Assembly: GCA_014236755.1 (NCBI GenBank)
Contig: JACCKY010000016.1
Location: 1-64,000, forward strand
DNA from: Candidatus Petromonas tenebris
GTDB taxonomy: Bacteria; Bacillota; Clostridia; Peptostreptococcales; Caminicellaceae
DNA length: 64,000 bases
Direction: 5' to 3'
Shown: piece by piece, positions 17,423 through 63,653 of the stretch
Layout: each line of letters opens with the position of its first letter
How positions within the stretch are numbered: the first letter of the stretch is position 1
Notes under the pieces: model-generated
Databases searched by the model: none
What the model saw: the letters and a program-made list of their open reading frames with translations, nothing else
What the model was told of the DNA's origin: nothing
Made by a program: the position numbers and the translations under genes

Positions 17423-17433
17423 ATAAGGAATAC

Positions 17434-25452: not shown

Positions 25453-26343
25453 GTGCAAGTTAATAAAGCAAATATCATTGAAGTGTGTCCAAGGGATGGA
25501 TTTCAAAATATAAATGAGTTTATACCAACTGAGACAAAGCTTAAGGTAATTGATGGATTGGTAAACTCAGGATTCCAAAAAATACAGGTAACTTCATTTG
25601 TACATCCAAAGGCAGTACCACAGATGAAGGATGCTAAGGAAATAGCACAAACAGTTATTGAAAAATATCCGAATGTAGATTTTACTGCCCTTGTTCCGAA
25701 TCTTTTCGGAGCAAAGGCAGCCTATGAATCAGGGATTAAAGAAATAAGCTATGTTATATCAGCGAGTGAAGCCCACAACAAAGAGAATGTTAGAAGAACA
25801 ATTGAAGAATCCTTTGAAGGATTAGCAGAAATAAGAAATAGATTTAAAGATTTAACTCTAAAACTTGATATCGCTACGGCTTTTGGTTGTCCATTCTTGG
25901 GAGAGGTGCCTGTAAGTCAGGTATTAAAAATGATAGGTACTGCGCTAAAGATTGGAGTAGATTATATATTCCTTGCAGATACAATAGGTGTGGCAAATCC
26001 AAAGCAAGTAGGAGAAACTCTTGAAGCTGTTAAAGATAAGTATCCAGATAGGGATTTTGGACTTCATTTACATGATACAAGGGGGATGGGCCTTGCCAAT
26101 GTGTTAGTTGCCATCGAAAGAGGCATTTCAACTTTTGAGTCTGCAGCAGGAGGACTCGGAGGCTGTCCCTTCGCACCGGGAGCAGCAGGTAATATTGCTT
26201 CAGAAGACCTCGTTAATATGCTTGAACGAATGGATATTTCAACGGGAATAGATTTAAATAAACTTATAGATACTACTGACTTTATAAAAGAAAAAATAAA
26301 AGCTGATTTAACAGGACATCTGGCAAACATTTGTAGAAAATAA
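25453..26343 (+). CDS. HMG-CoA lyase-like enzyme (possible citramalyl-CoA lyase)
   Basis: A 296-residue DRE-TIM metallolyase. Signatures: EVCPRDGFQN at the N-terminus, the metal-site HLHDTRGMGLAN near 200, and the cysteine loop GGLGGCPFAPGA near 236. It cleaves a beta-hydroxyacyl-CoA with a tertiary alcohol into acetyl-CoA plus a keto acid or acetoacetate. No leucine-catabolic genes (3-methylcrotonyl-CoA carboxylase) are near, so the neighbouring CoA-transferase points to citramalyl-CoA cleavage to acetyl-CoA + pyruvate. It starts at GTG 25453 after GGAG, 13 nt behind the transferase. Confidence 0.85.
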   Translation: MQVNKANIIEVCPRDGFQNINEFIPTETKLKVIDGLVNSGFQKIQVTSFVHPKAVPQMKDAKEIAQTVIEKYPNVDFTALVPNLFGAKAAYESGIKEISYVISASEAHNKENVRRTIEESFEGLAEIRNRFKDLTLKLDIATAFGCPFLGEVPVSQVLKMIGTALKIGVDYIFLADTIGVANPKQVGETLEAVKDKYPDRDFGLHLHDTRGMGLANVLVAIERGISTFESAAGGLGGCPFAPGAAGNIASEDLVNMLERMDISTGIDLNKLIDTTDFIKEKIKADLTGHLANICRK

Positions 26344-26344
26344 T

Positions 26345-26523
26345 TTAACCTCTTGTGCTAGTTACTCTAACAGTATGTCTTTAAATATCCTTCAATGTTT
26401 CCTCTGAAGTGACTCCTAAAAGCTGTTTTTACCTCTAAATTTTTTCTATATAAAACAGCTCTTCTACGGAGCCTGAAGAGGATTATTGAAGGATATCTAT
26501 AAGGAACTGGCACAACAAGTTAA
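26345..26523. repeat. Fold-back repeat family 1, full copy, inverted
   Basis: The reverse-complement orientation of 144-322 and the same 179-bp length. It lies 2 nt after the HMG-CoA-lyase-like stop and 20 nt before the dehydrogenase start, so it splits the operon's last gene from the rest and would form a long RNA hairpin between the two messages. Confidence 0.88.
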
Positions 26524-47385: not shown

Positions 47386-47916
47386 ATGAAACTAAAGGGT
47401 AAGAAAATCATAGCACTTATTCATGATGACTTTGAGGATCTGGAACTGTGGTACCCTGTCCTGCGACTTAGAGAAGAGGGAGCAACAGTGCATATTGTAG
47501 GAGATGAAGGAAATAAAAAATATATAGGCAAATATGGAGTTCCGGCCCAGTCTGATTTTGCCTTTACAGAAATTGACCCGTCACAGTATGACGCGCTTTT
47601 AGTTCCAGGAGGATGGGCGCCGGATAAGCTTAGAAGATTCAAAGAGGTAATAGATATTGTAAAATATATGGATGAGAACGAAAAACCTATAGGACAGATA
47701 TGCCACGCAGGGTGGGTGCTGATATCTGCAAAGATACTAAAGGGTAAAAAAGTTACGAGTACACCAGGTATAAAGGATGATATGGAGAATGCAGGAGCTG
47801 TATGGCTTGATGTACCTAGTATAGTAGATGGTCATATAGTATCGAGTAGGAGGCCGCCTGATCTGCCTGAGTACATGAAGGATTTTATAGAGGTTTTAGA
47901 AAAAAAGAATAGTTAA
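47386..47916 (+). CDS. DJ-1/PfpI family protein
   Basis: 176 residues. LIHDDFEDLELWYPVLRLRE near the N-terminus, LLVPGGWAPDKLR near 68 and the nucleophile elbow GQICHAGW near 102 (Cys-His) match PfpI/YhbO-type proteins, variously described as proteases, deglycases or methylglyoxal-handling enzymes. As part of a dihydroxyacetone operon a role against reactive carbonyls fits (inference). The ATG at 47386 follows GGGGAGATG. Its last five codons (KKNS and stop) and terminator are duplicated exactly at 60739. Confidence 0.85.
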   Translation: MKLKGKKIIALIHDDFEDLELWYPVLRLREEGATVHIVGDEGNKKYIGKYGVPAQSDFAFTEIDPSQYDALLVPGGWAPDKLRRFKEVIDIVKYMDENEKPIGQICHAGWVLISAKILKGKKVTSTPGIKDDMENAGAVWLDVPSIVDGHIVSSRRPPDLPEYMKDFIEVLEKKNS

Positions 47917-47986
47917 AAATTTTATAAAATATTGCTATTAAGAGCATGCAACAAGGTATGCTCTTTTATTAATGCAAAAATTCAGT
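47902..47986 (+). repeat. 85-bp exact direct repeat, left copy
   Basis: Identical over 85 of 85 bases to 60739-60823. It includes the last codons and stop of the PfpI gene and the terminator (47941-47970: AGAGCATGC..GGTATGCTCTTTTATT). The two copies bracket about 12.7 kb of genes with different codon habits, so they look like the footprints of an insertion or duplication event. Confidence 0.92.
47941..47970 (+). terminator. Terminator of the dha/PfpI operon
   Basis: AGAGCAT faces ATGCTCT, followed by TTTATT. It is part of the 85-bp direct repeat, so an identical terminator stands at 60778-60807. Confidence 0.88.
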
Positions 47987-48063
47987 ATCCAACTCTTGCC
48001 CTAGTATAGCATGGTTAGATTACTATGCTCAAACTACAAATTGGAAAAATGTTGCGTAAAGGG

Positions 48064-48112
48064 TTGACATTATTTAAAGAATTGTATACAATAATAACAA
48101 ACAGTATACAAA
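48064..48112 (+). promoter_or_regulatory. Promoter and double GntR-type operator of the TRAP unit
   Basis: TTGACA (48064-48069), 17-bp spacer, TACAAT (48087-48092). The perfect palindrome ATTGTATACAAT (48081-48092) covers the -10, and a second GTATAC (48104-48109) is centred 20 bp further. ATnGTATACnAT is the motif class of FCD-type GntR regulators. The same arrangement stands before the PFOR gene. The 48113-48579 stretch that follows holds a long leader and a doubtful small ORF. Confidence 0.8.
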
Positions 48113-48579: not shown

Positions 48580-49611
48580 ATGAAAAAGAGAAAATTATTA
48601 AGCAGCTTGGTGGCTCTATTTATGGTTTTATTAATTGTGACTGGTTGTGGGAAAAGCACTCCTGCTGATACAAAACAAGGAGATACAGGAAAAGTTTACA
48701 AAATGAAAATCGCTAGTATTTTATCAGATAGTGACCCTGAAACTCTTGGGCTGAAAAAATTAAAGGAACTTATAGAAACCAAGTCGGACGGTAATATTAA
48801 AGTAGAACTTTATCCGAATGCTCAGCTAGGAGCAGCATCAACATATTTGGATACTTTAAGGCAAGGAACTATACAGATGGCTTCACCAGGTAGCGTAATG
48901 GCACAACTTCAACCACTAGTTGCTGCACCAGAAATGCCTTTCCTTTTTAGAGATTGGGATCATGCAAGAAAAGTACTCACTGATCCAAAATATACTGACA
49001 AGCTTGTTGAAGGTATGATTGAAAAGAATGGAATACGTGCTCTTGGATTTGCACCAAGAAGCTTTAGAGTTATGTCATTTAATAAAGAAGTTAGTAGTTT
49101 CGATGACTTGAAGGGAAAACGCTTGCGAGTTCCTAATATTCCCTTTTATATAGAACTTGCTAAGGCACTAGGTACAAACCCTGTTGCATTACCATTAACT
49201 GAATTGTTTAGTGCATTGGAACAAAATGTTGTTGATGGACAGGAAAATCCATATGCTACAATATCTACAAGTAAGTTTTATGAAGTTCAGGATTATATAC
49301 TTGAGTCAAATCATATATTCACTGTACACGGTTGGTATATAAACGAAAAGTTCTTCCAGAGCCTTCCAGATGAATATCAAAAAATAGTAACCGAGTCTGC
49401 AAAAGAAGCAATTGACTATACATTTGATATTTCCATAGAGGCAGAAAAAGAAGCAAAGGAATTACTAAAGAAAGAAGGCGTAAAGATTATTGTTCCAGAC
49501 GAACAATTCAAGGCTAAGATAAGAGAGGCAAAAGGTCCAGCTCGTGAATTCTTCTATAAAACATATCCAGGCAGCAAAGAATGGGCAGAAATGGTTGATG
49601 CTGTACAATAA
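48580..49611 (+). CDS. TRAP transporter solute-binding lipoprotein (DctP family)
   Basis: 343 residues. Signal peptide with lipobox VTGC (Cys about 23), then a DctP domain: MKIASILSDSDPE, YPNAQLGAASTYLDTLRQG near 82, and the conserved Arg region LKGKRLRVPN near 178 that binds a substrate carboxylate. It captures an organic acid outside the membrane for the DctQ/M permease. RBS AAGGGGGA. First gene of the GntR-type unit. A stem-loop follows, as in many binding-protein genes. The substrate is unknown but should carry a carboxylate. Confidence 0.92.
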   Translation: MKKRKLLSSLVALFMVLLIVTGCGKSTPADTKQGDTGKVYKMKIASILSDSDPETLGLKKLKELIETKSDGNIKVELYPNAQLGAASTYLDTLRQGTIQMASPGSVMAQLQPLVAAPEMPFLFRDWDHARKVLTDPKYTDKLVEGMIEKNGIRALGFAPRSFRVMSFNKEVSSFDDLKGKRLRVPNIPFYIELAKALGTNPVALPLTELFSALEQNVVDGQENPYATISTSKFYEVQDYILESNHIFTVHGWYINEKFFQSLPDEYQKIVTESAKEAIDYTFDISIEAEKEAKELLKKEGVKIIVPDEQFKAKIREAKGPAREFFYKTYPGSKEWAEMVDAVQ

Positions 49612-49665: not shown

Positions 49666-49752
49666 ACAATAATGACTTCAATTCATTATTATAAAAATAA
49701 TTTTTATGGCTGTATGTTTAAATTAATGGTCAATTATTGGGAGGTTATGATT

Positions 49753-50274
49753 ATGGAAGAAAAAGCCAGTTTGCAGAGGGCAATAAATAAGGAAGAAAAA
49801 AATAGTTTTAAGAGTATCTTAAATAAGTTTTTTACTAGATTTATGGTTTTATCTTTATCAATGATGGTTATTCTGGTATTTATAAATGCAATAATGCGAT
49901 ATATTTTTAAAACAAGTTTACCAGTATCAGAGGAGTATTCGCGATTCTTTTTCATGTGGACAACATTCTTGGGAGTAATTGCTGCATTCAAAGATAAGCA
50001 GCATGTTGCAGTTACAATTGTTATCGACCAATTAAAAGGGAAGACCAAACGTATTTTTTATGTTATTGCCCAGATAATTTCATTAATTGCTATGATTATT
50101 GTTCTAATTGGCGGAATAAAATATACGATATCTGCGTCAACTTACAAAACAGTAGCAACAGGAATAAACTTTGGTATAATTGCAAGTGGTATTGTGGTTA
50201 TGGTTGCTGGTTCAATTGGTATTATTATTTATGATACATACAATACTTTAAAAGAAGAGACGAAGGGAGAATAA
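49753..50274 (+). CDS. TRAP transporter small permease (DctQ family)
   Basis: 173 residues with four hydrophobic helices and the family stretch SEEYSRFFFMWTTFLG near 62, followed by AAFKDKQHVAV. The ATG at 49753 has GGGAGG 8 nt upstream; longer reading from 49672 would put the start inside the hairpin tail. It partners the DctM-like gene 5 nt downstream. Confidence 0.9.
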   Translation: MEEKASLQRAINKEEKNSFKSILNKFFTRFMVLSLSMMVILVFINAIMRYIFKTSLPVSEEYSRFFFMWTTFLGVIAAFKDKQHVAVTIVIDQLKGKTKRIFYVIAQIISLIAMIIVLIGGIKYTISASTYKTVATGINFGIIASGIVVMVAGSIGIIIYDTYNTLKEETKGE

Positions 50275-50279
50275 GAATT

Positions 50280-51563
50280 ATGGAAATGGCTGCTTTTCTA
50301 GGTACTTTGTTTGGCTTCATGACTTTTGGGATCCCTATTGCTATAGTGTTAGTTTTATGTGCTATTGTTCTAATGCTTGTAATGGGGCAGTTTGATCCTT
50401 TGGCTATTGCACAAGCTATGGTTACAGGAACTAATAGTTTCCCGTTAATGGCTATTCCGTTTTTTATGCTTGCTGGAGAAATAATGTCTCAGGGAGGATT
50501 ATCAGCTAGAATTGTAGAATTTGCAAATTTGTCGGTAGGAAAAGTGAGAGGTGGATTGGGATATGCTGCCATTATAGCGAGCATTATATTTGCTGGTCTG
50601 TCAGGAAGTGCTGTTGCTGATGCTGCTGCACTAGGTGCGATTTTAATACCGATTATGAAATCAAAAGGATATAAGTTAGGACGTTCTGCTGGATTTATAT
50701 GTGCTGGTGCAGTAATAGCGCCTATCATACCTCCAAGTATACCTATGATTGTTTTGGGAACATCCGTAAATCTGTCCATAACTAGGCTTTTTATGGCTGG
50801 AATAATTCCTGGACTTATACTGGGTATTGCATTGCTTATTGCATGGTTTTTCGTTGTTAGAATTGATGGATACACCGATACAATAACGTATACAAAAGAG
50901 GAAAGAAGAAAGATTTTTAAAGAATCATTACCAGCATTGATGATGCCCGTACTTATTGTGGGAGGAATAAGACTTGGTATATTTACACCTACAGAAGCTG
51001 GAGCTTTTGCAGTAGTATATGCTTTGATTGTATGTAGATTTGTATATAAAGAATTGGATATTGACCAAATTGGTGATATTTTTTCTGCAGCAGCTAAAAG
51101 TACTGCAACAGTTATGTTTATTGTTGCTGCAGCCACTGCTGTAGGTTTTTATATTACAACTGCACAAGTTCCTGCACAAGTGGCAGGTGCATTGGGAGGA
51201 CTTATTGATAAGCCAATGCTATTGTTACTTACAATAAATGCATTTCTTTTCGCAATTGGTATGGTTATGGATTTGACACCAAATATTCTTATTTTTGCAC
51301 CTGTATTATTCCCTGTTATACAGCAAGCTGGCATCGATCCATACTTCTTTGCAGTTATTATGACGTTAAATCTTTGTATAGGTCTTATATCACCACCAGT
51401 TGGAACCGTTTTATATGTAGGATGCGGTGTTGCTAAAATTGATTTTGGTCGATTAGTTAAGGGAATTCTGCCGTTTTTGCTAGTGGAAATAAGTATTTTG
51501 TTACTTTGTATTTTATTCCCATCACTTATTATGGGACCTCTCAAATTAATAATGGGAACGTAA
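50280..51563 (+). CDS. TRAP transporter large permease (DctM family)
   Basis: 427 residues, about 12 helices. FPLMAIPFFMLAGEIMSQGG near 60, SGSAVADAAALG near 103, PPSIPMIVLGTS near 152 and LTPNILIFAPVLFP near 330 are the standard DctM features. It couples uptake to the sodium or proton gradient. In the 180 bp after it, TTAAGGAT/ATCCTTAA and ATTCCCAGTAA/TTACTGGGAAT form two hairpins before the next gene. Confidence 0.93.
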   Translation: MEMAAFLGTLFGFMTFGIPIAIVLVLCAIVLMLVMGQFDPLAIAQAMVTGTNSFPLMAIPFFMLAGEIMSQGGLSARIVEFANLSVGKVRGGLGYAAIIASIIFAGLSGSAVADAAALGAILIPIMKSKGYKLGRSAGFICAGAVIAPIIPPSIPMIVLGTSVNLSITRLFMAGIIPGLILGIALLIAWFFVVRIDGYTDTITYTKEERRKIFKESLPALMMPVLIVGGIRLGIFTPTEAGAFAVVYALIVCRFVYKELDIDQIGDIFSAAAKSTATVMFIVAAATAVGFYITTAQVPAQVAGALGGLIDKPMLLLLTINAFLFAIGMVMDLTPNILIFAPVLFPVIQQAGIDPYFFAVIMTLNLCIGLISPPVGTVLYVGCGVAKIDFGRLVKGILPFLLVEISILLLCILFPSLIMGPLKLIMGT

Positions 51564-51751: not shown

Positions 51752-52135
51752 ATGAAATTAATGCACACTAAGCTACCAGATTTCATTAGAAAGATGAAAG
51801 AAGCGGCGGCTAAAATAGGTTCTACTTGTAAGGAATGTAAAGTTGTTGGTCTAGAAAATTTAAAAACAGCAAAAATGCAGTCTTTAAGGACAGGGAGAAT
51901 TGAGCAAGCGGTAGAAGAGCTAGCTAAAATGGAAGATGTGCATAAAGTAGAAGTTGCTATTATTCCTCGTATTCCTGAATCAATGCACAGTGCAATTGTA
52001 AGAGGATTTGATGAAAATGGAAACCCTACCCATGCAATCCTTGAAACAATCAATATACTTCATCCGACAGAGGATATTTTGTTGCATGACTGTCCAGATG
52101 TTGATGACAGAAGGCCGCCGATTGGAAATCACTAG
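51752..52135 (+). CDS. Uncharacterised 127-residue protein of the TRAP cluster
   Basis: Not recognised. The N-terminus has CKECK near 28, the middle is helical (IEQAVEELAKMEDVHKVEVA), and the C-terminus has HDCPDVDDRRPP. The Cys/His/Asp-rich ends could hold a metal. The ATG at 51752 follows AAGGAG. It precedes the 340-residue unknown by 65 nt, and both lie in the presumed GntR unit. Probably an enzyme subunit or accessory protein for the imported acid (inference). Confidence 0.7.
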   Translation: MKLMHTKLPDFIRKMKEAAAKIGSTCKECKVVGLENLKTAKMQSLRTGRIEQAVEELAKMEDVHKVEVAIIPRIPESMHSAIVRGFDENGNPTHAILETINILHPTEDILLHDCPDVDDRRPPIGNH

Positions 52136-52200
52136 TTTTTATTTGGACTCCATAAAAAATGGCTTAATCAGTATATAAATTTAAAAGAGGTGGAATAAAA

Positions 52201-53223
52201 ATGAGCAGACTAAAATATAAAATTATTCCAGAAGGAATGTTAGATGGAATTTTAGTTCCATTATCAATCGTATTTATTGATTATGCAGATGTAAAAGCTT
52301 GTAATATCTCTATGCGTGAAGCATGTGAAAAAGTTGCAGCTACTATTCCTGGACCAGCCGGTATTAACATGTTTGACATGACAGCTACCACAACTAATAG
52401 TGATGGTGTTATGATTGATGGATCTATGACATGTATGGCAGCTTCTGATTATGGTAAAATCAACAAAGATTTTGGCTACCTTGAAATGGTTGAGGTCCCT
52501 TACTCAGAAGAATTAATTAAGGAAGAACCTCATTTAAAACAGTGGATGAAATCTTATCCCGATAGAAGACTTATTATGGGGCCAGATCCTAAGAAAAAGA
52601 AAATTCCAATTCACAATGCTGTTCTGACAGGAAGAGCAGGAAACAATAACTCTGCTACTGAGATGATGCACTATATTACTATGGAAGAAATTCTTTTGCC
52701 TATCACTGGACAGCTTCAGATTATGAAAGATGGTAAGGTTGAAATTGGTGGAACGGGCTGGATTATTTCAGTTGGTATTGGTATGGTTGTTGGTGAAGAA
52801 TATGGACGTATTGTTCCTCATAGACAGTTCAAATGTGGAGAAACTGCACACAATTCTGGAGAATATGCGAAATTCCTTAAAAGCCATATTCCATGTATCG
52901 CAGCCGACAAGTCAGTTCTTGCAAAATATATCATCCAGGCTTTGCAAACTGGTGTAATTCCAGGAAGGGATATTGGTGCTTCCCCTGCGGTTCTTTCCGT
53001 AGCAAGACATATGAAAATCAAGCCGGATTTCGATAACATGAGTGAAGCCTCCTTTAAAGAATTAGCAAGTGTTGGATTTACAAAAGAATGGATGAATGAA
53101 GAAGTAGAAGAATTAACACCAGAAGAAATTATTGCAAGAGCAGATGAAATCATTCCAGGTATTGATAATCCTCGTAAATATAATGTATCTGATATTGTGC
53201 AAGTAAAGTACGTTGATGTTTAA
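52201..53223 (+). CDS. Uncharacterised 340-residue protein of the TRAP cluster
   Basis: Not recognised. It is soluble, with no signal. Repeated Gly/Thr/Met-rich segments: FDMTATTTNSDGVMIDGS near 58, NAVLTGRAGNNNSATEMMHY near 139, PHRQFKCGETAHNSGEY near 207 and VIPGRDIGASPAVLSV near 257. The conserved look of the last two suggests an active site with Cys, His and Arg. RBS AGAGGTGG. Largest unknown in the island, so the best candidate for the main catabolic enzyme acting on the TRAP substrate. Confidence 0.75.
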   Translation: MSRLKYKIIPEGMLDGILVPLSIVFIDYADVKACNISMREACEKVAATIPGPAGINMFDMTATTTNSDGVMIDGSMTCMAASDYGKINKDFGYLEMVEVPYSEELIKEEPHLKQWMKSYPDRRLIMGPDPKKKKIPIHNAVLTGRAGNNNSATEMMHYITMEEILLPITGQLQIMKDGKVEIGGTGWIISVGIGMVVGEEYGRIVPHRQFKCGETAHNSGEYAKFLKSHIPCIAADKSVLAKYIIQALQTGVIPGRDIGASPAVLSVARHMKIKPDFDNMSEASFKELASVGFTKEWMNEEVEELTPEEIIARADEIIPGIDNPRKYNVSDIVQVKYVDV

Positions 53224-53248
53224 TATCTAACAAATAGTAAAATTATAA

Positions 53249-53286
53249 ACACTGAAACGAGAAATTATGGTTTCTCGTTTCAGTGT
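53249..53286 (+). terminator. Strong hairpin after the 340-residue unknown
   Basis: ACACTGAAACGAGAAA pairs exactly with its complement (53271-53286): a 16-bp stem without a T-run, so either a rho-type or partial terminator before nadD. Confidence 0.65.
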
Positions 53287-53364
53287 CATTGCAATGAAAA
53301 GTGTAGTAATGGAATTAAAGAATTTTACAAATATTGAAGGAAAAATAAAAGAAAGGAATATTAT

Positions 53365-53982
53365 ATGGAGAAGATAGGCATTTATGGAGGTACATTCAAT
53401 CCCATTCATAATGGACATTTGAATATGGCAAAGCAAATGGGAAATATGCTGGAGCTTGATCGTATATTGATCATTCCTGCCAACGTGCCGCCACATAAAG
53501 TGGGGGTTCCTATAACAGAAGAGAAGCACAGATATGAAATGTGCCGTCTTGCTTGTGAAGAAAGCCGTCTTTTTCAAGTTTGTGATATAGAACTTAAGCG
53601 AGAAGGCAGAAGCTACACAGTAGACACTCTAAATGAAATTTCTAGTAAATACAATAATAGCCGTCTGTATTTTATGATGGGTTCCGATTCATTTCTATCT
53701 GTAATAAAATGGGTAGGATTTGAAAAAATTATTCGGCTTGCAACATTGTGTACTGCCCCTAGAAATACAAAGGAAATCCCTCAGTTATTAAAAATGGAAC
53801 AGTTATTAAGGAGTAAAGGAGCTATCACAAGAATTTGTGATATTCCTATTATGCCTATATCTTCTACGGAAATAAGAAACAGGATTTCTAAAGGATTAAA
53901 TGTTGAAGAAGTGCTTCCCCAAAAAATAGTTGATTACATAAAAAAGAATGGACTTTATATGAAAAATAAAGGTGTGCTTTAA
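53365..53982 (+). CDS. nadD: Nicotinate-nucleotide adenylyltransferase
   Basis: 205 residues. GIYGGTFNPIHNGHL at the N-terminus is the HxGH nucleotidyl-transfer site, VPPHK near 41 and the C-terminal PISSTEIRNRI motif (ISSTxIR) are diagnostic. It converts nicotinate mononucleotide to deamido-NAD. Clostridial nadD usually sits beside obg or yqeK; here it lies in a catabolic cluster and is possibly a second copy. RBS AGAAAGGAA. Repeat family 2 begins 2 nt after the stop. Confidence 0.92.
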   Translation: MEKIGIYGGTFNPIHNGHLNMAKQMGNMLELDRILIIPANVPPHKVGVPITEEKHRYEMCRLACEESRLFQVCDIELKREGRSYTVDTLNEISSKYNNSRLYFMMGSDSFLSVIKWVGFEKIIRLATLCTAPRNTKEIPQLLKMEQLLRSKGAITRICDIPIMPISSTEIRNRISKGLNVEEVLPQKIVDYIKKNGLYMKNKGVL

Positions 53983-53984
53983 AC

Positions 53985-54145
53985 TATAGATAACAAAGTT
54001 CAAGGTTAAATTTATTAAGATTTTGAGAATTCTTCTGGTTCATGTGAAGATTTGCCCTCTTTAAATAAAAGAAGACAGAAGTAGCAACAAATGCTTCAAA
54101 ATCTCTAGAGAAATATAAATTAAATCTTAGAGTTGTCTATCTATA
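53985..54145. repeat. Fold-back repeat family 2, shorter copy
   Basis: 161 bp. Ends TATAGATAACAA and TTGTCTATCTATA; same core as 17434 but with about 20 bp missing near the right arm. Its presence inside the island shows either that the element moved in after the island arrived or that the island comes from a related genome. Confidence 0.85.
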
Positions 54146-54245
54146 TTGATACTGAAATGACTTTTTAGAATATGATCAATGTAAAAGCTTACCGAAGGCA
54201 AATAGTGTTAAATTGTATCAAATACAGAGAAATGGGGAGATTGTG

Positions 54246-54608
54246 ATGCAGGACGATACTAAAGTTATAGTACAGGTCGATAAAACGGTAGTAAAAGTTA
54301 CTGGATTAGAAGTGAAAGGGTTAAACATTCAACAACTGGAAGAAATTATCAATGACAAATTAAAAAGTGTAATCAGGATTATTGGTGTAACAGGTAACTC
54401 TTTAGAAATGGATGTTTACGGTGTTGAAGAGGAAGATATTTTAAGGGAGAAGAGTGGCTTAATTAAAGCTATTGCATTAGCAGACGGAATTACTGTTTCC
54501 GATTTGACAAAACTTTCTTCTGTTAAGAAGATTCAGAGTGTAGATATTAATTCAGTACCGGACTACATCGAAAATGGATGCATGGGTGAAAGGTGGCAAA
54601 AATTGTGA
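54246..54608 (+). CDS. Uncharacterised 120-residue protein
   Basis: Not recognised. Strand-rich N-terminus (KVIVQVDKTVVKVTGLEVKG), helix IQQLEEIINDKLKS, and a repeat-like middle with GVTGNSLEMDVYGVEEEDIL. The ATG at 54246 follows GGGGAGA. Its stop overlaps the next start (GTGA), so it is co-translated with the molybdopterin-binding-type protein and probably forms a complex with it. Confidence 0.7.
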   Translation: MQDDTKVIVQVDKTVVKVTGLEVKGLNIQQLEEIINDKLKSVIRIIGVTGNSLEMDVYGVEEEDILREKSGLIKAIALADGITVSDLTKLSSVKKIQSVDINSVPDYIENGCMGERWQKL

Positions 54609-55132
54609 TAAATAAAGCTGTTATTATCCCTACAGGTGATGAAATCAAGACAGGGATTGTTTTGGATACGGATAGTCCTATGATTATGCAGGTTTTGTTA
54701 AGTATGAACGGTAGATGTAATATTATCCGAAATGAACCTGTAGCTGACAGAGAAAACTTGATTACGGACTGCATACAGCGCTATGTTCACGAAAATGTAG
54801 ACTTAATTATTTTAATAGGTGGTTCTGGAGGGGGGCATAGACATAGCACCACGTTGGGAAAGGATTTTACCCATTCCTCTTTAGAATTGCTGTTAGAAGA
54901 AAAGTATTCCTCTGAGCTTTATGGAAAAAATGGACACATGTGGAGCAAGCTTTTGTGCGGTACTATTAAAAATACTATGGTTATTAATGTACCTGGGCCA
55001 TTCCAGGAAGCACGTGCGGCAATTGAAGCATTTAAGAAAGCTTATGAACGAGATGAAAAAAATTTAAAACAAATCAATTTGAAAATGATGGAAGCGGTGA
55101 AGGCACAATATGGTGCAAAAAGTAAGGTGTAG
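54605..55132 (+). CDS. Molybdopterin-binding-domain (MoCF/CinA-like) protein
   Basis: 175 residues. VIIPTGDEIKTG near the N-terminus and LIILIGGSGGGHRHSTT near 72 are the two loops of the MoaB/MogA/CinA-type fold, and VINVPGPFQEARAA is the third. The usual Asp of the GGTG(x)xxxxD loop seems replaced, so classic molybdopterin adenylation is doubtful. The GTG at 54605 overlaps the preceding TGA and has AGGTGG 8 nt upstream. No other molybdenum cofactor genes are near. Possibly a repurposed domain acting on the pathway substrate. Confidence 0.7.
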   Translation: MINKAVIIPTGDEIKTGIVLDTDSPMIMQVLLSMNGRCNIIRNEPVADRENLITDCIQRYVHENVDLIILIGGSGGGHRHSTTLGKDFTHSSLELLLEEKYSSELYGKNGHMWSKLLCGTIKNTMVINVPGPFQEARAAIEAFKKAYERDEKNLKQINLKMMEAVKAQYGAKSKV

Positions 55133-55242
55133 AAAATATGCACCTTGCTTTATAGTATTGCAGAAAAAAATAGTGAAATGTTATGGGTATTTAAATAAAC
55201 TACGTTTATAACCAAGTGGAATAAAGCTTTTGAGGTGAATTT

Positions 55243-55848
55243 ATGGAAAACAGAAATTCTAAAAATATGTTTCATGGGGAAGCATTTTTGTTGAAAACGA
55301 TTTCTAATGACGGTTACAGCGTAATAGTCGGCGGTATCTGTCCTGAGGGAAAAAAAAAGGAAGCAATTCGAGCATATTCTGCAATTAGCAAAATTAAACT
55401 TGGCCAGTCAAAAGATGAATTTTTAGTGGATTATATTTTGGCAAATGCGATTACCCACCTATCTCCTGAGTGGATAAATATAGTGGGAGCTTCCATACGG
55501 ATTCATGGTGTACAGAAAAGTACAGGAGGGATTATAGGAAACCCATTTGAAGAACATGAATCTGCTAAAGGTAACATGGAAGAAGTAATGCCAGGTTTGT
55601 TTTTGATTTCTTTAGCAGGTGGTCCGGGTATTGCTTTTGCAGGAACTTATGACGATGCAATATTATTAGAAAAGATAATTCGAGAAAAAAATATGGCACA
55701 AAATAGGAAAATAGAAGGGATTTTAAAGAGGTTGGACGAAATAACGAAACTTTATATTTTAGTTGCTGATGGAAGTGGAGAAGAGAGCTTTGGAGGAATA
55801 TTCATATCTGATAAAAACGGGAAAAATTGTTTGTTGTTGAGACCTTGA
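55243..55848 (+). CDS. Uncharacterised 201-residue protein
   Basis: Not recognised. It is soluble. Segments GYSVIVGGICPEGKKKEA near 24, AITHLSPEWINIVGASIRIH near 70 and SLAGGPGIAFAGTYDDA near 123 look like conserved loops of an alpha/beta enzyme. GTG-rich leader with GAGGTG before the ATG. Last gene before the PFOR promoter, in line with the unknown genes upstream. Confidence 0.65.
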   Translation: MENRNSKNMFHGEAFLLKTISNDGYSVIVGGICPEGKKKEAIRAYSAISKIKLGQSKDEFLVDYILANAITHLSPEWINIVGASIRIHGVQKSTGGIIGNPFEEHESAKGNMEEVMPGLFLISLAGGPGIAFAGTYDDAILLEKIIREKNMAQNRKIEGILKRLDEITKLYILVADGSGEESFGGIFISDKNGKNCLLLRP

Positions 55849-55911
55849 GTTTTTTAAATACTTTATGGAGTTTTATAATAAAAAAAGTCCTAGTGAAGGT
55901 TATAGTAGTAG

Positions 55912-55960
55912 TTGACATTATCCAACTAATTGCATACAATATTATTAAATGGTATACAAT
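55912..55960 (+). promoter_or_regulatory. Promoter and double GntR-type operator of the PFOR gene
   Basis: TTGACA (55912-55917), 17-bp spacer, TACAAT (55935-55940). ATTGCATACAAT (55929-55940) covers the -10, and GTATAC (55952-55957) is centred 20 bp downstream. Spacings equal those at 48064-48112 in every respect, so one repressor probably controls both. Confidence 0.82.
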
Positions 55961-56029: not shown

Positions 56030-59000
56030 ATGAATAAGCGCAGAAAACAAACTATGGATGGTAACACAGCAGCGGCGTATGCTTCATACGCATTTACAGA
56101 AGTAGCTGTAATCTATCCTATTACTCCATCTTCACCGATGGCTGAATCAATTGATGTATGGTCTGCTCAAGGAAGAAAAAATATTTTCGGGCAGCCAGTT
56201 GTGGTAAAAGAAATGCAGTCAGAAGGAGGTGCTGCAGGAGCATTACATGGCTGTCTTCAGGGTGGCGCATTAGCCTCCACTTATACAGCATCACAAGGTT
56301 TATTATTAATGATACCTAATATGTATAAAATTGCAGGAGAACTTCTTCCAGGCGTATTTCATGTTAGTGCCCGTTCGTTAGCGTCTAATGCCCTTAGCAT
56401 CTTTGGTGATCATCAAGATGTTATGGCTACACGTCAGACAGGGTTTGCTATATTGGCATCCAGCAGTGTACAACAATGCATGGATCTTGGAGCGGTAGCA
56501 CATTTGGTTGCGATTAAATCTCGTATACCTGTACTTCACTTTTTTGATGGTTTTAGAACATCGCACGAGATGCAAAAGATTGAGCTGCTTGAATACGATG
56601 AACTTGCAAAATTAGTTGATATGGATGCTGTGAATGAGTTTCGTGCACGCTCTCTTAACCCTGATCATCCAGTACTTCGTGGTACAACCCAAAACCCGGA
56701 TATCTTTTTCCAAACTCGTGAAGCAGTCAACAAATTCTATGAGCCGTTGCCAGAAGTATTCCAACACTATATGGACGAAATAAATAAATTAACAGGACGT
56801 GATTATAAGCTGTTTAACTACTATGGGTCTCCGACAGCAGATAAGGTTATTATCGCGATGGGATCTGGATGTGATGTAATCAGAGAAACAATTGAATACT
56901 TTAACGCACAAGGCGCAAATTATGGTCTGTTGGAAGTTCATCTTTATCGTCCATTCTTTGCAGAACATATGTTTAATGCATTACCTAAAACGGTAAAACG
57001 TATTGCTGTATTAGATCGTACCAAAGAACCTGGTGCTGAAGGTGAACCCCTTTATTTGGATGTTAGAAATGCATTCTTTGGAAAAGAAGATGCTCCATTG
57101 ATTGTTGGAGGACGTTACGGTCTTGGTTCTAAGGATTTTACACCTGCAAATGTCATGGAAGTATTTACTAATCTTGAGCAAGAGGAGCCACGTGATGGAT
57201 TTACCGTTGGTATTGTTGATGACGTTACATATAAATCACTTCCAGCATATGAGAAAAAATTTAATCCGACACCTAAGGGAACGATAGCATGTAAATTCTG
57301 GGGACTTGGCTCAGATGGTACAGTAAGTGCAAATAAATCTGCTGTAAAAATCATCGGTGACCATACTGACAAGTATGTACAGGCATACTTTGCTTATGAT
57401 TCTAAAAAATCAGGTGGTTTAACGGTTTCTCATTTACGATTTGGAGATGCTCCAATTATGGCACCTTATCTGATTAACATGGCAGACTTTATCGCTTGCC
57501 ATAATCAGGCCTATGTACAAAAGTACGATTTGCTTGATGGTGTTAAAGAGGGAGGTATATTCCTGCTTAATTGTGTCTGGAGTCCAGAAGAATTGGAAAA
57601 GGAACTGCCTGCATCACTGAAACGTCAGATGGCAGAAAAAAATGTTGAATTTTACACTATTAATGCAGTTGAAATTGCTAAAAGCTTAGGCCTCGGCAAT
57701 CGTATCAATATGATCATGCAGGCAGCATTTTTCAAATTAGCGAAGGTTATGCCTTTAGATGAGGCAATAAAATATCTAAAACAAGCAGTGGAAAAGAACT
57801 ATGGTAGACAGGGACAAGACGTTGTTGATATGAACTGGAAGGCGATTGATGCCGGCATAACTTCCATTACTAAAATTACAATTCCAGATAGCTGGAAGGA
57901 TGAGCAGGACGAAAAAGTAGAAGTTAAGACCGATTTGCCTGATTTCGTTGAGAAAATTGTGATTCCAATGAATAGTCAAAAGGGAGATTTATTACCGGTG
58001 AGTGCATTCAATGGAATTGAAGATGGAACCTATCCAACGGGTGTTACACAATATGAGAAACGTGGTATCGCTATCGAGGTTCCCTACTGGGATGCTCAAA
58101 AATGTATTCAGTGTAATCAGTGCGCATTTGTATGTCCACACTCAGTGTTGAGACCTATGTTATTGACAGATGAACAGGTGAAAGCAGCTCCTGTAGGTAT
58201 CATTACCAAAGCTGCCAATGGGTTTAAAGGAAAACAATTTTACATGGGATTTTCTGCTTTGGACTGTACAGGTTGTGGTAATTGCGTTGACGTTTGTCCT
58301 ACTAAGGAAAAAGCACTTGAGATGAAACCTCTTGCACCAAAACGTGAAGAGTTTGAGAAATTATGGGAGTTTGCAAAAAGTGTTGAACCTATACAACTTA
58401 CAAAAGAACAAAAGGCAACAGTTAAGGGCAGCCAATTCCTGCAACCACTATTTGAGTTTTCAGGTGCATGTGCCGGCTGCGGAGAAACGCCTTATGCAAA
58501 ATTGATTACTCAACTTTTCGGAGACAGAATGGTAATTTCTAATGCTGCTGGTTGTGCTACTGTTTGGGGTGGTTCAGCACCATCTATTCCTTATACAAAG
58601 AATCGTTTGGGACATGGTCCTGCCTGGGGATTCTCGCTATTTGAGGATAATGCAGAGTATGGATTCGGTATGTATCTAGGTGCAAAGACTGTTCGTAAGG
58701 CAGTTGCTGATAAAGTAAGGGCTGTACTCAAAAAGGGTGTCGATAAAGAACTTGAAGAGGCAATGAACCAGTGGCTTGACGGATTTGAAAAATCAGAAGG
58801 AACACGCGAAAGAGCAGATAAACTAGCTAAGTTGCTGGAACAATATCGTGATATTCCAGAACTTGCGGAAATTTACGAGCGTCGTGATTATTTCGTTAAG
58901 CAATCGAACTGGATTTTTGGTGGAGATGGCTGGGCTTATGATATTGGGTATGGTGGTTTAGACCATGTACTTGCTTCCGGAGAAGATATCAATGTAATAG

Positions 59001-59569
59001 TTTTCGATACTGAAGTGTACTCAAACACTGGTGGACAGTCATCGAAATCAACACCGACAGCAGCTATTGCTAAATTTGCAGCTTCAGGAAAATATACGAA
59101 GAAAAAAGACCTTGGTATGATGGCAATGAGCTATGGTTATGTTTATGTGGCGCAGATTGCCATGGGTGCGAACAAGGCACAGACGTTGAAGGCGATTCTC
59201 GAAGCAGAAGCTTATCCAGGTCCATCTTTGATTATTGCGTATTCGCCATGTGTTAATCATGGTATCAAAGGCGGTATGGGAAAATCCCAGAGACAGGCAA
59301 AACGTGCTGTAGAAGCTGGGTACTGGTCATTATATCGATATAATCCATTGTTGAAAAAAGAAGGAAAAAACCCATTTATTTTGGACTCCAAGGACCCAAC
59401 AGCTAGCTTTGAGGAATTCCTTTTAAGTGAAGTTCGTTTTGCATCCCTACTTAAACAGTATCCTGATACTGCCAAGGAACTGTTTAAAAAAGCGGAACAG
59501 GATGCAAAAGACAGACTGGAAAGCTATAAGCGTTTAAGTCAGCAAGAATACAATAATCCTCTGGTTTGA
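56030..59569 (+). CDS. nifJ: Pyruvate:ferredoxin oxidoreductase (single-chain)
   Basis: 1179 residues. Pyruvate + CoA + oxidised ferredoxin to acetyl-CoA + CO2 + reduced ferredoxin. N-terminal YPITPSSPMAE and FGDHQDVMATRQTG; CoA/gamma domain near 420-600; ferredoxin domain with CIQCNQCAFVCP and CTGCGNCVDVCP near 690-755; TPP domain with GACAGCGETPY near 815, GGDGWAYDIGYGGLDHV near 965 and NTGGQSSKSTP near 1004. Full length. The ATG at 56030 follows AAGGAAAGGAA; the ATG at 56003 precedes that site. Codons CGT and GGT are frequent, unlike the AGA-rich genes before 47.9 kb. The two-site promoter ties it to the TRAP unit, so the imported acid may be degraded to pyruvate or another 2-oxoacid. Confidence 0.95.
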   Translation: MNKRRKQTMDGNTAAAYASYAFTEVAVIYPITPSSPMAESIDVWSAQGRKNIFGQPVVVKEMQSEGGAAGALHGCLQGGALASTYTASQGLLLMIPNMYKIAGELLPGVFHVSARSLASNALSIFGDHQDVMATRQTGFAILASSSVQQCMDLGAVAHLVAIKSRIPVLHFFDGFRTSHEMQKIELLEYDELAKLVDMDAVNEFRARSLNPDHPVLRGTTQNPDIFFQTREAVNKFYEPLPEVFQHYMDEINKLTGRDYKLFNYYGSPTADKVIIAMGSGCDVIRETIEYFNAQGANYGLLEVHLYRPFFAEHMFNALPKTVKRIAVLDRTKEPGAEGEPLYLDVRNAFFGKEDAPLIVGGRYGLGSKDFTPANVMEVFTNLEQEEPRDGFTVGIVDDVTYKSLPAYEKKFNPTPKGTIACKFWGLGSDGTVSANKSAVKIIGDHTDKYVQAYFAYDSKKSGGLTVSHLRFGDAPIMAPYLINMADFIACHNQAYVQKYDLLDGVKEGGIFLLNCVWSPEELEKELPASLKRQMAEKNVEFYTINAVEIAKSLGLGNRINMIMQAAFFKLAKVMPLDEAIKYLKQAVEKNYGRQGQDVVDMNWKAIDAGITSITKITIPDSWKDEQDEKVEVKTDLPDFVEKIVIPMNSQKGDLLPVSAFNGIEDGTYPTGVTQYEKRGIAIEVPYWDAQKCIQCNQCAFVCPHSVLRPMLLTDEQVKAAPVGIITKAANGFKGKQFYMGFSALDCTGCGNCVDVCPTKEKALEMKPLAPKREEFEKLWEFAKSVEPIQLTKEQKATVKGSQFLQPLFEFSGACAGCGETPYAKLITQLFGDRMVISNAAGCATVWGGSAPSIPYTKNRLGHGPAWGFSLFEDNAEYGFGMYLGAKTVRKAVADKVRAVLKKGVDKELEEAMNQWLDGFEKSEGTRERADKLAKLLEQYRDIPELAEIYERRDYFVKQSNWIFGGDGWAYDIGYGGLDHVLASGEDINVIVFDTEVYSNTGGQSSKSTPTAAIAKFAASGKYTKKKDLGMMAMSYGYVYVAQIAMGANKAQTLKAILEAEAYPGPSLIIAYSPCVNHGIKGGMGKSQRQAKRAVEAGYWSLYRYNPLLKKEGKNPFILDSKDPTASFEEFLLSEVRFASLLKQYPDTAKELFKKAEQDAKDRLESYKRLSQQEYNNPLV

Positions 59570-59641: not shown

Positions 59642-60307
59642 ATGAAAAAAAGAAATGATAGTAGCAGTAATTTGAGCAAAAAAGTGTACGAACAGATTAA
59701 ACGGATGATTCTGCACCTTGAAATAAAGCCGGGCGAGCGTATACCAGAGGAAAAGCTTGCAAATTTTGTTAATGGCAGCAGGACGCCCGTGCGAGAGGCG
59801 TTACGGAAGCTGGCTAATGAGGGACTAGTGAACATTTATCCTAGACGATTTTCAGAAGTGGCTTATTATGATGAAGAGGCTGTTAAACAGATTGGTGTGG
59901 TTCGTTTATCTCAGGATTTACTTTCCTGCCAGTTAGCAATAATGCATGGCTCCAATGCCGATTTTGCCCTGTTGCGCCAGTTGGCGGAAAAGTGTGAAAT
60001 CGGAGCCAAAAGTGGGAACATTTATGAGCGTATAGCGTTCGATTCAGAATTCCATCTTCAGATTGCAGAAATCGGCGGAAATAAATTTTTAATTCAGAAC
60101 CAGAAAAAGCTATATCTGTTGATACATCTTATTCAAATATCGAAGTATACGAGTGTTGAGGACAGTATTGCGCAGATTCAAAACCATAAAGACATTGTTG
60201 AAGCTTTGTATAATCGCGACTTTGAAAAGATTAAAGTTGTAGTCTGCAAACATTTACAGTCATTCTATAATATTGACCAAGAAATCATCGACATGTATAT
60301 TAAATAA
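59642..60307 (+). CDS. GntR-family regulator with FCD-type effector domain
   Basis: 221 residues. Winged HTH (YEQIKRMILHLEIKPGERI, then SRTPVREALRKLANEGLV), followed by an all-helical FCD domain. RTPVREALRKL is the recognition-helix signature of the FadR subfamily. It lies 72 nt after PFOR with RBS AGAGGG. It is the only regulator in the island and therefore the likely owner of the ATTGTATACAAT operators at 48081 and 55929. FCD domains usually bind a carboxylate, most simply the TRAP substrate or its product. Confidence 0.9.
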   Translation: MKKRNDSSSNLSKKVYEQIKRMILHLEIKPGERIPEEKLANFVNGSRTPVREALRKLANEGLVNIYPRRFSEVAYYDEEAVKQIGVVRLSQDLLSCQLAIMHGSNADFALLRQLAEKCEIGAKSGNIYERIAFDSEFHLQIAEIGGNKFLIQNQKKLYLLIHLIQISKYTSVEDSIAQIQNHKDIVEALYNRDFEKIKVVVCKHLQSFYNIDQEIIDMYIK

Positions 60308-60545: not shown

Positions 60546-60558
60546 ACAAGTAGTTAAA

Positions 60559-60735
60559 TTAACTTGCCTCGCTAGGTCCTTATAGATATCCTTCAAAAAT
60601 CCTCTTCGGGCTTCATAGAAGAGCTGTTTTAATAGAAAAGATTAGAGGTAAAAACAGCTCTTTAAAGTCACTTCAGAGGAAACATTGAAGGATATTTAAA
60701 ACTATACTGTTAGAGTATCTAGCACAAGAGGTTAA
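60559..60735. repeat. Fold-back repeat family 1, full copy at the island boundary
   Basis: 177 bp, same orientation as 144-322. It ends AGAGGTTAA at 60735, only 3 nt before the right copy of the 85-bp direct repeat. The position suggests it took part in, or marks, the junction. Confidence 0.88.
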
Positions 60736-60738
60736 ATT

Positions 60739-60823
60739 AAAAAGAATAGTTAAAAATTTTATAAAATATTGCTATTAAGAGCATGCAACAAGGTATGCTC
60801 TTTTATTAATGCAAAAATTCAGT
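60739..60823 (+). repeat. 85-bp exact direct repeat, right copy
   Basis: Identical to 47902-47986. It begins with the last codons and stop of the PfpI gene, without the rest of that gene, and contains its terminator. The racemase-type operon follows after about 120 bp, so before insertion it presumably stood next to the PfpI gene. Confidence 0.92.
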
Positions 60824-60945
60824 GTGCACTTTGCATATTAATATAACAATATAGTATTCCCATGAACACAAGAAAATATGATAATATTCAAACAACACAA
60901 AAAATTCTGAAATAATTAAAAAATAAAAGATGGAGGAGAGAAGCC

Positions 60946-61602
60946 ATGGAACAGCACAAGATTGCAGTAATACGAGTAGTTACTATAGAAGAAGAAAAAC
61001 TGAATTTACATGGAAAACTTATTGAAAAATACTTTCCCAACTTAATTACAGAATCATATTGCATACCTGACCAATACAATGGTGTATATGATGACATCAG
61101 CCATGAAATTGCAACTGAAAAGATTATCGATATAGTAAAACAGATACAGAGTCAGTATGACGGAATAATAGTAAGCTGTGCCGGCGATCCCGCTGTGGAA
61201 GTATTGAATCAGGAACTTGATATACCAATAGTTGGAGCGGGACATTCTGTAGCAAGTTATAGTTTAAACTTTGGAGATAAGATAGGGGTATTGGGAATAA
61301 GAGAAGAGGCACCGGAAGCTGTAAAGAAAATACTGGGCGATAAACTGGTGAAATCTGCTAAACCTGTAAAAGTTAACAATACAAATGACTTATTAACGGA
61401 AGAAGGAAAAAAATCCGTAATTGAGGCAGCAAAGAAACTAGAAGAAGCAGGTGTTGATACTATAATCTTAGCATGTACAGGATTATCCACCATAGGAGTA
61501 GCAAAATATTTAAATGACAATATAGGTATACCTGTCATTGATCCTGTATTTTCAGAGGCTTTAGTAATGAACAGCATATGTAAGTATAAATACTTTTTTT
61601 AG
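60946..61602 (+). CDS. Asp/Glu/hydantoin racemase family protein
   Basis: 218 residues. Two catalytic cysteines in the family positions: IVSCAGDPAV near 81 and ILACTGLSTIG near 184. Such enzymes racemise amino acids or hydantoins without a cofactor. It is followed by DUF917 and DUF1177 genes, a grouping that also occurs with AroM-like proteins. RBS GGAGGAGAG. The substrate is unknown; a cyclic amide or thiohydantoin fits the DUF917 gene. Confidence 0.83.
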   Translation: MEQHKIAVIRVVTIEEEKLNLHGKLIEKYFPNLITESYCIPDQYNGVYDDISHEIATEKIIDIVKQIQSQYDGIIVSCAGDPAVEVLNQELDIPIVGAGHSVASYSLNFGDKIGVLGIREEAPEAVKKILGDKLVKSAKPVKVNNTNDLLTEEGKKSVIEAAKKLEEAGVDTIILACTGLSTIGVAKYLNDNIGIPVIDPVFSEALVMNSICKYKYFF

Positions 61603-61614
61603 TAGGTGATATTT

Positions 61615-62703
61615 ATGGAAAGTTACAATATTAAAATTACTGAAGAAATTGCAGAGGCGGCTGTATTAGGGGGACTATTCCTTGGAGGGGGCGGTGGCGG
61701 TTCATCCAAGGAAGGAATGCGAGCTGCTGAAGAAGCTTTAAAATTAGGAGAATTAACATTAGTTTCCTATGATCATATAAACAGAGACGATATAGTAATT
61801 ACGGCATCAGCAGTAGGTTCACCGGCCGCGATAGAAAAGTTTGTTTCTGCTGAGCAGTGTAAGAAGGCATATGAAATGTATAGGGATTTACTTGATGGAG
61901 AAATAGGCGGAATAATTACCAATGAAAATGGGGGACATTCAACTACAAATGGATGGATAGTATCTGCAATGGCCGGTATACCTCTAATAGATGCTCCTTG
62001 CAACGGCAGGGCCCATCCAACGGCTTCCATGGGAAGTATGGGGTTAAGTCAAATAAAAGGATATAAGACTATACAAATAGCTATAGGAGGAAATCCAAAT
62101 CTAGGAAAAGAGATAGAAGTAATAGCGAAAGGAAGTCTAAATGCAACATCATCAGTAGTAAGACATGCGGCAGTTGAAGCAGGTGGATTGGTAACTGTCC
62201 TTAGAAATCCTGTAAAGGCAGAATATCTAGAGAACAATGCAGCTATAGGAGGTCTTAAACAAGCTATAGATATTGGAAAAGTATTTCTCAAGCATAAAAA
62301 AGATATGGAAGCTGTATTGAAAGAGTTGTCGGAAATGATTTCATTAGAAGTAATAGTAAGAGGAATAGTAAAGAAATATGAAATCAGAACCCAGGGAGGA
62401 TTTGATGTAGGATTTGTAGCAGTCGAAGCTCAAGATGGAGGTTATGAAATTACCTTCTGGAACGAATACATGACATTGGAATATGAAGGTGAAAGATTGG
62501 CTACTTTTCCCGACTTAATAGTTACTTTAGATAGTAAAACTGGAAGGGTTCTAACAAGTGCTGAACTAAAAGAGAAGGATGAAATTATAGTTGTAAAAGT
62601 GGACAGAGGTAAATTAAAACTTGGTCAAGGAATGTTTGATAAAAAACTTTTTCAAAAGGTTGAAGAGGTTCTAGAGAAAGAGATTATAAAATATGCATTT
62701 TAG
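61615..62703 (+). CDS. DUF917 family protein
   Basis: 362 residues. GGLFLGGGGGGSSKEGMRAA near 17, GGIITNENGGHSTTNG near 100, DAPCNGRAHPTASMGSMG near 122 are DUF917 hallmarks. Family members include S-methyl-thiohydantoin desulfurase and hydantoinase-linked proteins. The ATG at 61615 follows TAGGTGAT. Part of the racemase-DUF917-DUF1177 operon. Confidence 0.85.
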   Translation: MESYNIKITEEIAEAAVLGGLFLGGGGGGSSKEGMRAAEEALKLGELTLVSYDHINRDDIVITASAVGSPAAIEKFVSAEQCKKAYEMYRDLLDGEIGGIITNENGGHSTTNGWIVSAMAGIPLIDAPCNGRAHPTASMGSMGLSQIKGYKTIQIAIGGNPNLGKEIEVIAKGSLNATSSVVRHAAVEAGGLVTVLRNPVKAEYLENNAAIGGLKQAIDIGKVFLKHKKDMEAVLKELSEMISLEVIVRGIVKKYEIRTQGGFDVGFVAVEAQDGGYEITFWNEYMTLEYEGERLATFPDLIVTLDSKTGRVLTSAELKEKDEIIVVKVDRGKLKLGQGMFDKKLFQKVEEVLEKEIIKYAF

Positions 62704-62720
62704 AGAGGAGACGGTGCACA

Positions 62721-63653
62721 ATGCTTAAACAGGTTATGGAGATGTATGAGTTATTAGATAGTCCAAATGCAAGTGGTAAACAAATAGAAGAGTTTTTAAG
62801 AAGCAGAGGAGCAGAAAGTGTAGTGACTGAAACTGTAACTGGCGATAAGGGAAGTACAGATTTTATAAAAGTAACAATCAAAGGTAGTGAAGGTAAAAGT
62901 ATAGGTGGAGATGCTCCAACCTTGGGGATTATAGGAAGGCTTGGAGGTCTTGGGGCAAGGCCAGAAGTTGTTGGATTTGTATCAGATGGAGACGGCGCCC
63001 TTACAGTATTATCTGCAGCATTAAAGCTGATAGATATGAACAAAAATGGAGACACCCTAAAGGGAGATGTAGTAATTACAACTCATATTTGTCCTAATGC
63101 TCCTACTAGAGAACATTTTCCCGTTAGATTCATGGATTCACCAGTAGATATTGAAACAATGAACAAAATGGAAATAACAGACCAAATGGATGCTATTTTA
63201 TCTATCGACACTACAAAGGGCAACAAAATTATAAACACCAGGGGATTTGCTATTTCCAGCACTGTGAAAGAAGGATACATCCTAAAGGTAAGCGATGATT
63301 TGCTTGAAATTATGATGAGGACAAGCGGAAGATTGCCCTATGTATTTCCCATATCTCAGCAGGACATAACGCCCTACGGAAATGGACTTTATCATTTAAA
63401 TAGCATATTACAACCAGCCGTTGTTGCTAAGGCTCCTGTAGTAGGCGTTGCTATAACCACTGAGGTACCGGTTGCAGGTTGTGCTACTGGAGCAACCCAT
63501 CTTACAGACGTAGAAATGACAGCAAGATTTGTAGTTGAAGTAGCTAAAGACTTTGGAGAAAAGAAATGTAAATTTTACGATGAAAAGGAATATGAATTAA
63601 TTTTAAAGCTGTATGGAGATATGAAGAGATTCCAAACTAAAGGAGAGCAATAA
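62721..63653 (+). CDS. DUF1177 family protein
   Basis: 310 residues. MLKQVMEMYELLDSPNASG at the N-terminus, TLGIIGRLGGLGARPEVVG near 73, and THICPNAPTREHFPVRFMDS near 120 are DUF1177 features. Function not established. It follows DUF917 by 17 nt with RBS GAGAGGAGAC and precedes a truncated gene by 1 nt. Confidence 0.85.
   Translation: MLKQVMEMYELLDSPNASGKQIEEFLRSRGAESVVTETVTGDKGSTDFIKVTIKGSEGKSIGGDAPTLGIIGRLGGLGARPEVVGFVSDGDGALTVLSAALKLIDMNKNGDTLKGDVVITTHICPNAPTREHFPVRFMDSPVDIETMNKMEITDQMDAILSIDTTKGNKIINTRGFAISSTVKEGYILKVSDDLLEIMMRTSGRLPYVFPISQQDITPYGNGLYHLNSILQPAVVAKAPVVGVAITTEVPVAGCATGATHLTDVEMTARFVVEVAKDFGEKKCKFYDEKEYELILKLYGDMKRFQTKGEQ

Follow-up and report, generated by a model that had tools for sequence, protein, structure and literature searches.

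A conserved set of undescribed proteins in a putative GntR-controlled catabolic regulon of Candidatus Petromonas tenebris

What do five genes of no familiar pathway contribute to a locus that begins with a tripartite ATP-independent periplasmic (TRAP) transporter and ends with a pyruvate:ferredoxin (flavodoxin) oxidoreductase (PFOR)? The genes, here called W127, W340, W120, W179 and W201, lie within a 64,000-nucleotide stretch of Candidatus Petromonas tenebris DNA (contig JACCKY010000016.1, positions 1 to 64,000; hereafter the window), from a genome of 2.94 Mb in 120 contigs. A first-pass annotation had proposed that they belong to one regulon with the transporter and PFOR, which breaks down an imported carboxylate to a 2-oxoacid and then an acyl-coenzyme A (acyl-CoA). 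We find that W127-W340-W120-W179, often with W201, form a conserved unit, that four of the five proteins appear to represent undescribed families, and that the shared control with PFOR is strongly supported by the promoter sequences. The five proteins may together form an enzyme that supplies PFOR with its substrate.

The genes named in the first-pass annotation were all present at their positions. We compared 16 loci, i.e., the window and 15 others from Firmicutes, and surveyed 398 genomes of this one phylum, together with one species-genome scan using close-relative patterns. The W genes are genuine, with 25–89% identity across up to 15 other loci and gene order mostly kept. They and the gene inserted among them are as follows:

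51752–52135, + strand: W127, core gene of an undescribed family, in 16/16 loci; no relative in Pfam, NCBIfam, PHROGs or PDB
52201–53223, + strand: W340, core gene of an undescribed family, likely catalytic subunit, in 16/16 loci; no library relative
53365–53982, + strand: NadD (nicotinate-nucleotide adenylyltransferase), optional passenger, only in the window and two other loci (L019 and L020)
54246–54608, + strand: W120, core gene of an undescribed family, in 15/15 loci with sequence there
54593–55132, + strand: W179, core gene with a MoaB/MogA/CinA-type domain (PF00994, E = 5e-12)
55243–55848, + strand: W201, frequent member from an undescribed family, in 11/16 loci; no library relative

W127 and W340 occur together in every locus compared, W120 and W179 are present wherever the contig extends that far, and TRAP genes are found in 12 of the 16. 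Among the 398 sampled genomes, W340 was detected in ten, from nine families; it also occurs in the named records of Clostridium bovifaecis, Sedimentibacter acidaminivorans, S. hydroxybenzoicus and two metagenome-assembled genomes (MAGs). An independent search of the same genomes with W120 returned the identical ten, a coincidence with a chance probability of 4e-20 if kinship is ignored. The genes thus do co-occur elsewhere, the failure of which had been named beforehand as grounds for abandoning the proposal.

Library searches gave only chance-level matches for W127, W340, W120 and W201 in Pfam-A, NCBIfam, PHROGs and PDB sequences, whether the queries were single sequences, profiles (PDB) or up to 15 diverse members per family (Pfam, and NCBIfam for W340). 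The first-pass annotation had been unable to match these four to a pathway, and we regard them, on sequence grounds, as four undescribed families. No relatives were found in viral contigs or plasmids, and a literature search found no description of the W set or its gene combination. A weak match in one genome (G395, E = 5.8e-5) was dismissed as chance; by eye it resembles a tyrosyl-tRNA synthetase. The family alignment of W340 contains invariant residues at D59, D83, E109, H111, N148–N150, E154, E163 and H217, and W120 carries a C-x2-ER motif at its C-terminus. The W120 profile also matched the beta subunit of D-lysine 5,6-aminomutase over 44 residues (74–117, E = 0.011); this match is short and weak and the cobalamin-binding motif is missing, and we rejected the assignment and retain it as a lead only.

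The fifth protein, W179, had been assigned a CinA/MoCF-type fold, and the profile score bears this out (46.2 bits against a PF00994 gathering cut-off of 26.6). It scored under the cut-offs for every named enzyme with this fold, the MoaB/MogA/CinA equivalogs NF006932, TIGR02667 and NF001813 included, and its signature is altered to GGSGGGHR...D.TH. The gene starts at either GTG 54605 (175 aa) or GTG 54593 (179 aa) and ends at 55132. Provided that GTG 54605 is the start, the reported GTGA coupling holds, as it overlaps the W120 stop; the two open reading frames overlap in several relatives as well. In locus L028, a MogA/MoaB-like gene lies between W179 and W201 (L028:8065–8574).

NadD, which the first-pass annotation located among these genes, was correctly identified (TIGR00482/NF000840 over cut-off, 192.7 versus 150 bits) and nevertheless does not belong to the conserved core. 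Since it is present in only 3/16 loci, and a second NadD gene occurs elsewhere in the genome, we treat it as an optional passenger. Two further features were observed on either side of it. A perfect 16-bp inverted repeat (53248–53287) between W340 and NadD was rejected as a + strand terminator because that strand lacks a T run, which is found on the minus strand only. Between NadD and W120 (53980–54165) lies a copy of an AT-rich imperfect palindrome of ~170–190 nt with ends TATAGATA...TATCTATA, dispersed in ~40 genome copies and resembling a miniature inverted-repeat transposable element (MITE); other copies are at 17432–17617 and 418–542. The 53.98–54.16 kb repeat was rejected as a riboswitch, given its dispersed palindromic nature and the lack of an Rfam match.

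The remaining genes of the proposed regulon and its two promoters, in an order that runs DctP-DctQ-DctM, W127, W340, NadD, W120, W179, W201, PFOR and GntR/FCD, are:

48063–48111, + strand: promoter TTGACA-17-TACAAT with double operator TTGTATACAAT-N11-GTATACAA, upstream of the TRAP/W operon
48580–49611, + strand: DctP, TRAP solute-binding protein (PF03480, E = 3e-77; NCBIfam dctP over cut-off)
49750–50274, + strand: DctQ, TRAP small permease (PF04290)
50280–51563, + strand: DctM, TRAP large permease (TIGR00786 over cut-off)
55911–55959, + strand: the other promoter with a double operator, ahead of PFOR
56033–59569, + strand: PFOR, full-length TIGR02176 match of 1899 bits against a cut-off of 911
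59642–60307, + strand: GntR/FCD regulator (PF00392 and PF07729), presumed repressor at both operators

The two promoter regions are 80% identical over 49 nt, including the TTGACA and TACAAT boxes, and each contains a pair of TTGTATACAA-like palindromes, set ~20 bp apart and overlapping the -10 box. A search with the pattern TGTATRY-N10-12-ATTGTATRCAA found exactly two sites in the genome, upstream of the TRAP/W operon and of PFOR-GntR, whereas the reversed control pattern gave none in any genome scanned. Four relatives that carry the same GntR gene contained six sites (two each in C. bovifaecis and S. hydroxybenzoicus, one each in S. acidaminivorans and a Tissierellia MAG), all upstream of these operons and inside the compared loci; the last of these, in L024, stands ahead of an operon encoding 4-hydroxybutyryl-CoA dehydratase (4HBD), DctQMP, a group-22 LarA-family isomerase, an alcohol dehydrogenase (ADH), a short-chain dehydrogenase/reductase (SDR), W127 and W340. 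The pattern was not found in UBA4845, whose locus (L023) also lacks a GntR gene. A double operator common to both promoters and found nowhere else in the genome is what a single regulon with PFOR predicts, and it strongly supports a closed control circuit in which the TRAP/W operon and PFOR-GntR are governed together, presumably through GntR binding at both operators.

The related loci also contain enzymes of known kinds. A group-22 LarA-family gene, encoding a nickel-pincer cofactor-dependent isomerase (NCBIfam NF052515), lies within the cluster in 13/16 loci; two members were scored with the NCBIfam model and the others were assigned by similarity. Such isomerases exceeded the cut-off in 9/10 genomes with W340 compared to 84/398 overall (p = 5e-6), and LarB, LarC and LarE adjoin the W cluster in L023. 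A profile comparison detected no relation of the five W families to this isomerase or to each other. LarA relatives that have been characterised act as racemases or epimerases of 2-hydroxyacids (PMC11770544, PMC7583248). Our literature search found no substrate for the group-22 isomerases.

Zinc-dependent ADH is encoded in five loci, SDR in four and 4HBD in five (890 bits to PDB 1u8v). The cluster ligands of 4HBD are C99, C103, H292 and C299, and their equivalents are kept in six proteins, including the window genome's own (C86:71917). That gene is found 12 kb beyond the GntR gene (contig position 71917), in another operon, and adjoins a gene that by eye resembles a CoA-transferase; the related operons with 4HBD showed no CoA-transferase. 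The arrangement in L032 is W127-SDR-ADH-W340-W179-OFOR alpha/beta/gamma-4HBD-W120-LarA22-W201-regulator, where the subunits of a 2-oxoacid:ferredoxin oxidoreductase (OFOR) and 4HBD sit inside the W core and a VorB-type enzyme takes the place of PFOR. The claim that no recognisable dehydrogenase, aldolase or lyase is present therefore applies to the window but not to its relatives, where LarA22, ADH, SDR and 4HBD share the operons. As a separate observation, L029 contains four-carbon acid sugar kinase-like and PdxA2-like genes (named by eye; L029:1792–4212) near the W set, which hint at tetronate-type substrates.

We propose a catabolic regulon of two transcription units, the TRAP genes with W127-W340-(NadD)-W120-W179-W201 and PFOR-GntR. 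The substrate taken up by the TRAP system would be an organic acid and, most probably, a 2-hydroxyacid. The nickel-pincer isomerase, where present (as in most relatives), would first interconvert the stereoisomers of this acid. W127, W340, W120, W179 and usually W201 may be subunits of a single enzyme of a type not described before, with W340 as the putative catalytic subunit and W179 as one that would bind a nucleotide- or pterin-like cofactor. This enzyme, with or without help from ADH or SDR, would convert the acid to a 2-oxoacid, from which PFOR or the VOR-type enzyme would produce an acyl-CoA and reduced ferredoxin. Since ADH, SDR and 4HBD occur in the same operon in several relatives, the acyl-CoA may be a 4-hydroxyacyl-CoA such as 4-hydroxybutyryl-CoA; as no CoA-transferase was seen in the related 4HBD operons, the 2-oxoacid oxidoreductase most likely supplies 4HBD with its substrate. 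Conversion of 5-hydroxy-2-oxopentanoate to 4-hydroxybutyryl-CoA would fit, and the literature search found no mention of that acid under the names tried. That a W enzyme under GntR control turns an imported hydroxyacid into the 2-oxoacid of PFOR has, in our judgement, about an even chance of being correct. The wider idea, that the W proteins are a new class of enzyme complex performing a new hydroxyacid reaction in anaerobes and feeding a fermentation from 2-oxoacid through 4-hydroxyacyl-CoA to enoyl-CoA, is tentative and somewhat doubtful, their folds not yet being tied to any reaction. The carboxylate to 2-oxoacid to acyl-CoA route proposed earlier is consistent with the gene context; of the overall interpretation, the undescribed proteins, the conserved unit and the PFOR regulon stand, while the place of NadD in the core and the lack of known enzymes beyond the window do not.

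Several points weigh against this proposal. W127, W340, W120 and W201 have no assigned fold or reaction, and AlphaFold2 models of W340 and W120 (predicted local distance difference test scores of 37 and 51) were unusable because the six-sequence input alignments were too shallow. TIGR02176-type PFOR usually acts on pyruvate. GntR binding and the W complex are both things that we infer. The route as a whole is pieced together from several species, since no group-22 isomerase was found in the window genome, by cluster or genome search, and its 4HBD is distant and beside the CoA-transferase-like gene; without the isomerase, its substrate or stereochemistry may differ. Finally, NadD and the W179 fold are compatible with a cofactor-related role.

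In such a role, the W set would synthesise a nucleotide-type cofactor or bring it to maturity, e.g., a variant nickel-pincer nucleotide or a pterin, for the neighbouring isomerase or dehydrogenases, and would not itself act on the substrate. The W179 fold binds molybdopterin or nucleotides, NadD, inserted in three loci, makes the LarB substrate NaAD, the set of L028 includes the MogA/MoaB-like gene, and the set strongly co-occurs with the nickel-pincer enzyme. However, the set is kept in the window genome, which lacks the group-22 isomerase, and 75 of the 84 genomes with this isomerase lack W340; moreover, LarB, LarC and LarE are separate genes sufficient for the known cofactor, and the presence of TRAP and PFOR gives the regulon a substrate-type character. 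We consider this explanation unlikely.

The W set could instead be a carbon-carbon lyase that cleaves the acid to yield pyruvate for PFOR together with an aldehyde, e.g., succinate semialdehyde. ADH would reduce this aldehyde to 4-hydroxybutyrate for 4HBD. Such a scheme would account for the window enzyme being a true PFOR, for ADH and 4HBD in related operons and for the CoA-transferase-like neighbour of the window genome's 4HBD. Yet the related 4HBD-bearing operons show no CoA-transferase, L032 encodes a VorB-type enzyme rather than PFOR, and no aldolase family was recognised, which makes a lyase rather improbable. That the adjacency is historical only and the W proteins have unrelated housekeeping roles is very improbable: catabolic clusters are dense in the window, and NadD and the MITE-like repeat indicate that insertions occur here, but exact co-occurrence in 10/398 genomes of nine families and a neighbourhood kept in 16 loci contradict it.

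Other features of the window were recorded alongside. A 90-nt sequence with a hairpin flanks the whole cluster in two 98% identical copies (47902–47991 and 60739–60828, 12.8 kb apart), which could mark a moved block. A second non-coding repeat occurs at 60555–60740, 144–327 and 26341–26505 (91–92% identical, on both strands), with no Rfam match at the gathering score. After the GntR gene, a separate operon (60946–63650) encodes an Asp/Glu racemase-family protein, a thiohydantoin desulfurase-like protein (S-Me-THD) and DUF1177. The dihydroxyacetone kinase genes DhaK/DhaL/DhaM lie downstream of a gene (42660–44687) for a sigma-54 activator that combines two PAS domains with an HPr domain at its N-terminus, and a glycine riboswitch is found at 709–812.

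Four undescribed families in near-perfect genomic partnership, within a closed regulon and between known flanking enzymes, would provide a tight frame for a new reaction. The W loci could likewise lead to the substrate of the group-22 nickel-pincer isomerases, which 84 of the 398 sampled genomes carry.

Parts of the locus can be compared with known systems. The regulator shares its domain make-up with FCD-type GntR repressors, as well as a TTGTATACAA-like palindrome at the -10 box, which we take to be an operator of their type; it differs in the strict pair of palindromes ~20 bp apart, found only here. W179 is a member of the MoaB/MogA/CinA domain family (PF00994) by profile score, though where the MogA-like protein of L028 has GGTG..D.TP, it has the altered motif. 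The similarity of W120 to the D-lysine 5,6-aminomutase beta subunit lacks the cobalamin-binding segment and may be chance. The LarA superfamily is represented by the group-22 cluster neighbours, which point to 2-hydroxyacid chemistry, but none of the five W proteins belongs to it. With respect to 4-hydroxybutyryl-CoA dehydratase/vinylacetyl-CoA isomerase (AbfD, 1u8v), the relatives' regulon includes a closely related enzyme in which every ligand residue is kept, whereas the counterpart in the window genome is downstream in a separate operon. Taken together, a regulon of importer, isomerase and oxidoreductase is of a known kind, and the enzyme at its core is undescribed.

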